Origin: Gemmatimonadaceae bacterium | GTDB taxonomy: Bacteria; Gemmatimonadota; Gemmatimonadetes; Gemmatimonadales; Gemmatimonadaceae | Length of the DNA: 64,000 bases | NCBI GenBank assembly: GCA_019186945.1 | Contig: JABAQJ010000002.1 | Coordinates: 399,897 to 463,896, forward strand | Direction of reading: 5' to 3' | Part shown: positions 2,203-34,052 of the stretch, piece after piece | How positions within the stretch are numbered: position 1 is the stretch's first letter | Layout: every line of letters begins with the position of its first letter | The notes under the pieces: model-generated | Seen by the model: the letters and a program-made list of their open reading frames with translations, nothing else | Told to the model about the DNA's origin: nothing | The model's database searches: none | Position numbers and translations under genes: made by a program

Positions 2203-2628
2203 ATGATCGATCGCACAGCAGGAGCGCGCTGGGAAGGAAACCTCAAGGACGGCAATGGTACGGTCCGGCTCGGCAGTGGCGCGTTCGAAGGCAAGTACGC
2301 ATTCGGGACGCGATTCGAATCGGCAGCCGGAACCAATCCCGAAGAACTGCTGGGCGCGGCTCATGCCGCGTGTTTCTCCATGGCGTTGGCCGCTGGGTTG
2401 GCGCGGGCCGGCCATTCCGTGAAGAGCGTGGATACCAGCGCCGTCGTGCATCTCGCCAAAGTCGGCGATGCCTTCACGATCACCGGAATCGATCTGGTGA
2501 CGACCGGAGACGTCCCGGGGCTGGCGGCGGCGGACTTCGCCAGGGCCGCCGAGGATACGAAGAAGAACTGCATCGTCTCCCGGGCTCTGGCGGCGGTACC
2601 GATGAAGGTCGAAGCGCGCCTGGCGTAG
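2203..2628 (+). CDS. osmC: OsmC organic hydroperoxide resistance peroxiredoxin
   Basis: A 141-residue OsmC protein, the thiol peroxidase that reduces organic hydroperoxides in the cytosol; length matches Escherichia coli OsmC (143). Both redox cysteines are present: Cys57 in GTNPEELLGAAHAACFSMAL and Cys123 in KKNCIVSRAL. The start ATG at 2203 was chosen because it aligns with the family N-terminus (MIDRTAGARWEGNL) and follows AGGA at good spacing; an in-frame ATG at 2158 would add 15 residues. The gene stands alone, convergent with the amidohydrolase (12-base gap). It makes a useful contrast to the second OsmC-like gene at 33.6-34.05 kb, which has TGA at the second cysteine. Confidence 0.95.
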   Translation: MIDRTAGARWEGNLKDGNGTVRLGSGAFEGKYAFGTRFESAAGTNPEELLGAAHAACFSMALAAGLARAGHSVKSVDTSAVVHLAKVGDAFTITGIDLVTTGDVPGLAAADFARAAEDTKKNCIVSRALAAVPMKVEARLA

Positions 2629-33599: not shown

Positions 33600-34052
33600 T
33601 CATTCCGGAACGACCCGGTGAACCACTACCACATCGGCGGTCGCGACCGCGACCGTACCATAGAGCGGTCAACGCCGCTTGAACCCCTCGACCAGGGCAG
33701 CCGCCTGCGCTCCGTCGGCGCCCGAGAGCTCAAACTCCATGCGGACGCTGTTGAAGAGCGTCACGTCGGAACGCTGCTGCTGCCCGCGGTCCACCATCGC
33801 CAACATGCGCGCGCCGATCCGCCGCACCGGAATCCCCTGCTCCCGCGCTATCACCTGAAGCAGCTCCACGCCACATGACGCAACCGCACTCAGGAAGGCT
33901 TCTGGCGGCGTCAGTTCTTCCCCGGGACAGCCGTTCTGGACGGGACCGTCCACGATGAAGTAGTGCTGTCTCGCGTTGCAGAGGACGCGGCCGAACGTAT
34001 CGGTGGATTGGGCACGAGCCTCGTACTCACGCACGGTACTGGGAGCGGCCAT
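33600..34052 (-). CDS. OsmC-like thiol peroxidase with in-frame TGA at the second redox cysteine (candidate selenoprotein)
   Basis: Read with one in-frame TGA as residue 128 the product is 150 residues. The first redox cysteine is Cys60 in PPEAFLSAVASCGVELLQ. The first stop (33669-33671) follows LVEGFKRR; beyond it the same frame runs PLYGTVAVATADVVVVHRVV to a second TGA at 33600-33602. Family members read ...KRR-Cys-Pro-Leu-Tyr-Gly-Thr at this place, so the TGA replaces exactly the Cys codon (TGC/TGT). Stopping at 33669 would remove the last strand and the redox centre. A hairpin of SECIS type starts just after the TGA. I therefore favour selenocysteine; alternatives are a nonsense mutation or a sequencing error. 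Start ATG 34052 has AGGTG four bases upstream. Selenium genes cannot be checked inside the window. Confidence 0.7.
33636..33671 (-). promoter_or_regulatory. Candidate bacterial SECIS element downstream of the in-frame TGA
   Basis: Counting from the base after TGA, nucleotides 14-20 pair perfectly with 25-31 (33649-33655 with 33638-33644), closing the tetraloop GGUC at 21-24 (33645-33648). Nucleotides 10-11 can pair with 32-33 across a UA bulge. A G and U in the apical loop about 20 bases after UGA and a bulged U are features of the Escherichia coli fdhF-type SECIS. GC-rich sequence makes chance hairpins common, so this is support, not proof. Confidence 0.5.

Follow-up and report, generated by a model that had tools for sequence, protein, structure and literature searches.

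A predicted multi-phylum selenoprotein family of the OsmC/Ohr fold with selenocysteine at the resolving position

The locus and its in-frame TGA

The window, a 64,000-nucleotide stretch of a Gemmatimonadaceae bacterium assembly, carries on its minus strand an OsmC-like gene with a TGA codon inside its reading frame, and on its plus strand a canonical OsmC gene (Table 1). The minus-strand gene starts with an ATG at 34052, and its codon 128, immediately after LVEGFKRR, is TGA (33671..33669 as read). Past this codon the frame continues as PLYGTVAVATADVVVVHRVVPE and ends at a second in-frame TGA (33602..33600). Translation thus confirmed the frame given in the original prediction, of which the quoted C-terminal tail was correct as far as it went, ending, trivially, six residues before the stop. 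When the TGA was read through, the product matched the Pfam OsmC domain (PF02566) with 41.0 bits over residues 44-135 (cut-off 27.5), versus 29.6 bits over residues 44-122 for a product ending at the TGA. The column that the TGA interrupts is the second conserved redox Cys of OsmC, and the lengthening of the match through the TGA agrees with the earlier claim that this is the residue replaced. A six-frame search of the whole genome to which the window belongs identified four OsmC genes, the window locus being an OsmC gene with one TGA inside. The canonical OsmC that had been noted elsewhere in the window, with Cys at the matching place, was likewise confirmed by its match to TIGR03562.

Table 1. 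Features of the predicted selenoprotein locus and of the OsmC paralogue in the window
Feature	Position	Strand	Remarks
Canonical OsmC paralogue, both redox Cys	2203..2628	+	TIGR03562, 165.7 bits
Predicted OsmC/Ohr-fold selenoprotein, full CDS	33600..34052	-	150 residues, predicted Sec at 128, stop codon included
In-frame TGA, predicted Sec128, resolving-Cys position	33669..33671	-	TGA in 47 family genes, TGC in 3
Cys60, peroxidatic-Cys position of Ohr/OsmC	33873..33875	-	Invariant in family
Glu51, catalytic-Glu position of Ohr	33900..33902	-	Invariant in family
Predicted SECIS stem-loop	33639..33654	-	7 covarying pairs around GU (33646-33647); 20 nt behind UGA, GGUC counted as loop

An AlphaFold2 model of the protein had a mean pLDDT of 91.8, and its best structural matches were all OsmC/Ohr proteins (1lql, Z 16.2; 2egt, 15.7; 1ml8, 15.3; 6mjn, 14.8), with a Z of 13.4 for the match to Ohr of X. 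fastidiosa. In a PDB profile alignment, PEQLFAAGYAAC of Ohr lined up with Glu51 and Cys60, and the C of its CP motif with residue 128; the equivalent residues serve in Ohr as catalytic Glu, peroxidatic Cys and resolving Cys, respectively (PMC5962072). The earlier assignment of the Sec site to the second redox Cys therefore stands and can be refined, in that the site aligns with the resolving and not the peroxidatic Cys of Ohr. Residue 128 is, like Glu51 and Cys60, among the invariant residues of the family, as are Arg22 and Arg28, one of which may correspond to the catalytic Arg in the mobile loop of Ohr. Cys42 of the NGCPGE motif is replaced by Ala in several members and is therefore considered non-essential.

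Codon 128 and the Sec machinery across genomes

In a search of 179 genomes belonging to the same taxonomic family, twelve orthologues, 53-69% identical, were found outside the own genome; within that family, the window gene included, codon 128 is TGA in 11 genes and TGC in two. Both of these Cys genes belong to one genus (g32), which also has two TGA genes. A scan of GTDB genomes yielded 45 loci, with records from Gemmatimonadota, Acidobacteria, Betaproteobacteria/Burkholderiales, Anaeromyxobacter and Deltaproteobacteria, Chloroflexi and Actinobacteria. The deduplicated set comprised 45 TGA and two TGC genes, to which two further TGA genes (L081 and L093) and a third TGC gene (L108) were added. 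Across the 50 collected members, from six phyla, codon 128 is thus TGA in 47 and TGC in three, and close relatives showed no unrelated stop codons at this column. The presence of this TGA in the window gene is not a matter of chance, as 46 other genes have it at the matching place.

The own genome (3.95 Mb, estimated 100% complete) was found to hold all four genes of the Sec machinery above their cut-offs, a search that had been suggested with the original prediction. These were the tRNA-Sec gene selC (C6:6596-6688, 70.5 bits; tRNA-SeC with anticodon tca according to ARAGORN), the adjoining selD (C6:6788-7708, 373 bits), selB (C6:77645-79489, 350 bits) and selA (C6:264610-265926, 508 bits). 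The selD gene (L021) is itself a UGA gene, with FARCAG-UGA-AAKMGPGDL at the position where selenophosphate synthetase usually has its Sec, the tabulated motif being UxxK (PMC13188914).

In the same taxonomic family, selB was seen in eight of the 11 TGA carriers and was not found by our search in the other three, of which two have selA over the cut-off and the third is an assembly that is 72% complete. This co-occurrence is weak evidence, since selB is common in the family anyway (104 of 179 genomes). Stronger is that selB was over its cut-off in all 22 tested carrier genomes outside the family, a sample made up of named records of carriers only. No selA was detected in the genome of the TGC member L108.

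In the family tree, the root of which is arbitrary and the deeper branches of which are weakly supported, the window gene lies within a Gemmatimonadota clade that also contains a copy from Anaeromyxobacter soli, of the Myxococcota (L066:6001-6447), a placement that suggests gene transfer between phyla. This copy is one in which Ala replaces Cys42. Plasmid and viral copies of the family were looked for and none was found.

A candidate SECIS element

The original prediction invoked decoding through the hairpin directly behind the TGA. In the window this hairpin reads GGUCGC-G-GU-C-GCGACC, and, numbered from the U of the UGA, its stem positions 18-24 pair with positions 27-33 around GU. Every cell of the seven stem pairs is standard-paired in all 41 distinct sequences (100%), and four of the seven pairs show double-sided changes. 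The number of double-change cells was 41, versus 11.6 +/- 5.6 in shuffles, with none of 500 shuffles as high, although this test is inflated by the relatedness of the sequences. Independent of the shuffle test are the slid controls, in which moving the pairing partner by 1-3 columns destroyed the covariation signal, and the distinct stem versions that occur in the family (GGUUGC/GCAACC, GAUCGC/GCGGUC, CGUCGC/GCGACG and GCUUGC/GCAAGC).

Constraint on the hairpin was also apparent at silent sites. The six codons that span it use just two bases at each third position, and their mean third-position entropy is 0.68 bits, whereas the other four-fold codons, 44 in number, have 1.45 (Mann-Whitney p = 0.0002). 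In 24 of 45 genes the pair flanking the GU is A-U instead of G-C, a switch made by two coupled silent changes. In the published model of bacterial SECIS elements the loop is N1-G-[G/U]-N2 with N1 and N2 paired, at 16-37 nt from the UGA, with a stem of 4-16 bp and an MFE of -7.5 or lower (PMC13188914), and the family hairpin agrees with this model (G-GU-C or A-GU-U, 20 nt, 6-7 bp, -13.1 kcal/mol). A bulged U has been described for the classical element (PMC8704476) and is absent from the stem of the family hairpin, and Rfam gave no match at the window locus. The unusually clear covariation and the fit to the published model support the predicted route of decoding. The conserved part of the hairpin, at 33639-33654, is narrower than the 33636-33671 originally proposed. 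Folded by itself, the window sequence also readily forms a longer hairpin (33620-33671, z -2.7), which was rejected as a family element because the consensus fold of the family keeps just the inner stem-loop there.

The hairpin is lost in two of the three Cys genes, namely those of genus g32, in both of which at least four stem pairs are broken. The third, L108 (L108:1501-1938), keeps a five-pair CUCGC-GGUC-GCGAG behind its TGC, which could be the relic of a former Sec gene or could have been produced by GC-rich codon use.

Predicted function and relation to known OsmC-type proteins

The overall reading of the gene as encoding a Sec-containing OsmC-like protein is supported, and each check named with it that was run came out in its favour. 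Decoding of UGA 128 as selenocysteine is, in our judgment, almost certain, being strongly supported by the comparative sequence evidence of a UGA at a Cys column, the SECIS element, the Sec machinery, the conservation of the family and the fold. Very probably the product is an OsmC/Ohr-fold selenoprotein with an OsmC/Ohr-like thiol-redox role, and the likely role is that of an organic hydroperoxide reductase with Sec as its resolving residue; here peroxidase activity, reaction order and reductant are predicted by homology only. We propose that SelB with Sec-tRNA-Sec would bind the hairpin directly downstream of UGA 128, which would be read as Sec to give a full protein with Glu51, Cys60 at the peroxidatic position and Sec128 at the resolving position. 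Cys60 would reduce an organic hydroperoxide and become a sulfenic acid, which Sec128 would attack to form a selenenylsulfide, and a dithiol or possibly lipoylated partner would then reduce the selenenylsulfide and so recycle the enzyme. We lean slightly towards this order of events, with Cys60 attacking and Sec128 resolving.

The two residues may instead exchange roles, with Sec128, the stronger nucleophile of the pair, attacking the peroxide and Cys60 resolving the selenenic acid so formed. The attacking residue in selenoperoxidases is usually Sec, and positions 60 and 128 are both invariant, but Glu51 stays with Cys60, as in the Ohr triad, and L138, a member of the related family NF041052 discussed below, has its Sec at the first position; we therefore regard the exchange as possible, if doubtful. 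That the protein is an OsmC-fold selenoprotein serving as a disulfide or other redox carrier, and not as a peroxidase, appears unlikely to us. Pointing in that direction are the description of an organic-peroxide-response protein that lacks thiol peroxidase activity (PMC4069020), a score of just 20.8 bits against the Ohr model TIGR03561 (cut-off 88.85), and the lack of any neighbouring gene that points to peroxide stress; against it, the fold and the positions of the Glu and of the peroxidatic and resolving residues agree with Ohr and OsmC. The neighbours in the window (an LCM-type methyltransferase, an alpha/beta hydrolase, a DinB_2-like protein, a SET protein and an M28 peptidase) gave no clue to function, and among the 45 loci no operon partner proved to be widely shared, once the gene and its shadow frames were set aside. 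Finally, it is extremely improbable that the TGA is a true stop behind a truncated OsmC of 127 residues: such a product would still pass the Pfam cut-off and read-through of UGA is rarely complete, but the identical TGA recurs in 47 genes of independent assemblies from six phyla, both protein and silent sites are conserved behind it, the hairpin covaries and the Sec machinery is present, so that a pseudogene, an assembly error and a plain stop can be dismissed.

On balance, we consider it probable that the window gene belongs to an unlisted selenoprotein family of several phyla with Sec at the resolving position of OsmC/Ohr, operating by a Cys60-Sec128 selenenylsulfide cycle or with Sec as the attacking residue. 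What sets the family apart is that, across six phyla, its Sec is predicted to occupy the resolving position of an OsmC-type fold and not the peroxidatic one. Cys and Sec forms occur naturally side by side in one genus, which provides material for studying the benefit that an enzyme gains from Sec.

Ohr proteins (TIGR03561), as represented by the structures from Xylella, Deinococcus and Chromobacterium, share the fold of the window protein (Z 12.6-14.2), and their catalytic Glu, peroxidatic and resolving positions align with it; the difference is that the window protein would have Sec where Ohr has its resolving Cys. Canonical OsmC (TIGR03562) likewise shares the fold and the two redox positions, but has Cys at both, and the selenoprotein gave no match to that model at E 0.001. 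Nor were family members above the cut-off of any other NCBIfam model.

A different OsmC-like gene was observed in another family of the same order (L129-L136). In this gene an in-frame UGA takes the place of the first Cys (LGA-UGA-TSMTIALYARR) and the second Cys is retained (CPVHRTLTSEI); a conserved hairpin, UCGCGC-UGUAU-GCGCGA, follows some 19 nt after the UGA. These genes probably represent a second, separate type of OsmC selenoprotein in the phylum Gemmatimonadota.

OsmC-like selenoproteins with the motif UxxT have been listed since 2005 (PMC1088965, PMC2398784, PMC9312934, PMC13188914), their source being the Sargasso Sea and GOS sets (PMC1088965, PMC2398784), in agreement with the earlier statement that such proteins had been reported from environmental sequence. 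Judged from the open-licence literature, the window family appears to be absent from present-day lists of selenoproteins, and the list of 2026 has a single OsmC-like entry, with a motif different from that of the family. The family seemingly escaped the inventories because the Sec codon is taken as a stop in standard gene calling.

The closest comparison is with the OsmC-related (seleno)proteins of NCBIfam NF041052, which, like the window family, have a PF02566 domain, Sec at a redox position and a SECIS element directly behind the UGA. In the member L138 (L138:1441-1947, 156.8 bits) the UGA replaces the codon of the first, peroxidatic Cys (AAVGF-UGA-MFSQL) and the second Cys is retained, and a Cys member, L109, has GFCYMT at the first position, consistent with UxxT. 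Behind the UGA of L138 lies a strong hairpin (-21.7 kcal/mol for 48 nt). Another NF041052 match of that genome, L146, also contains a TGA, and L137 is a further match to the model. Membership of the window protein in NF041052 was ruled out both by its score (27.6 bits, below the cut-off of 95) and by the position of its Sec relative to L138. With Sec at the second Cys, in the motif U-P-L-Y-G, and the Sec position of the known subfamily as read in L138, the window family is a subfamily separate from the OsmC-like selenoprotein of the literature.
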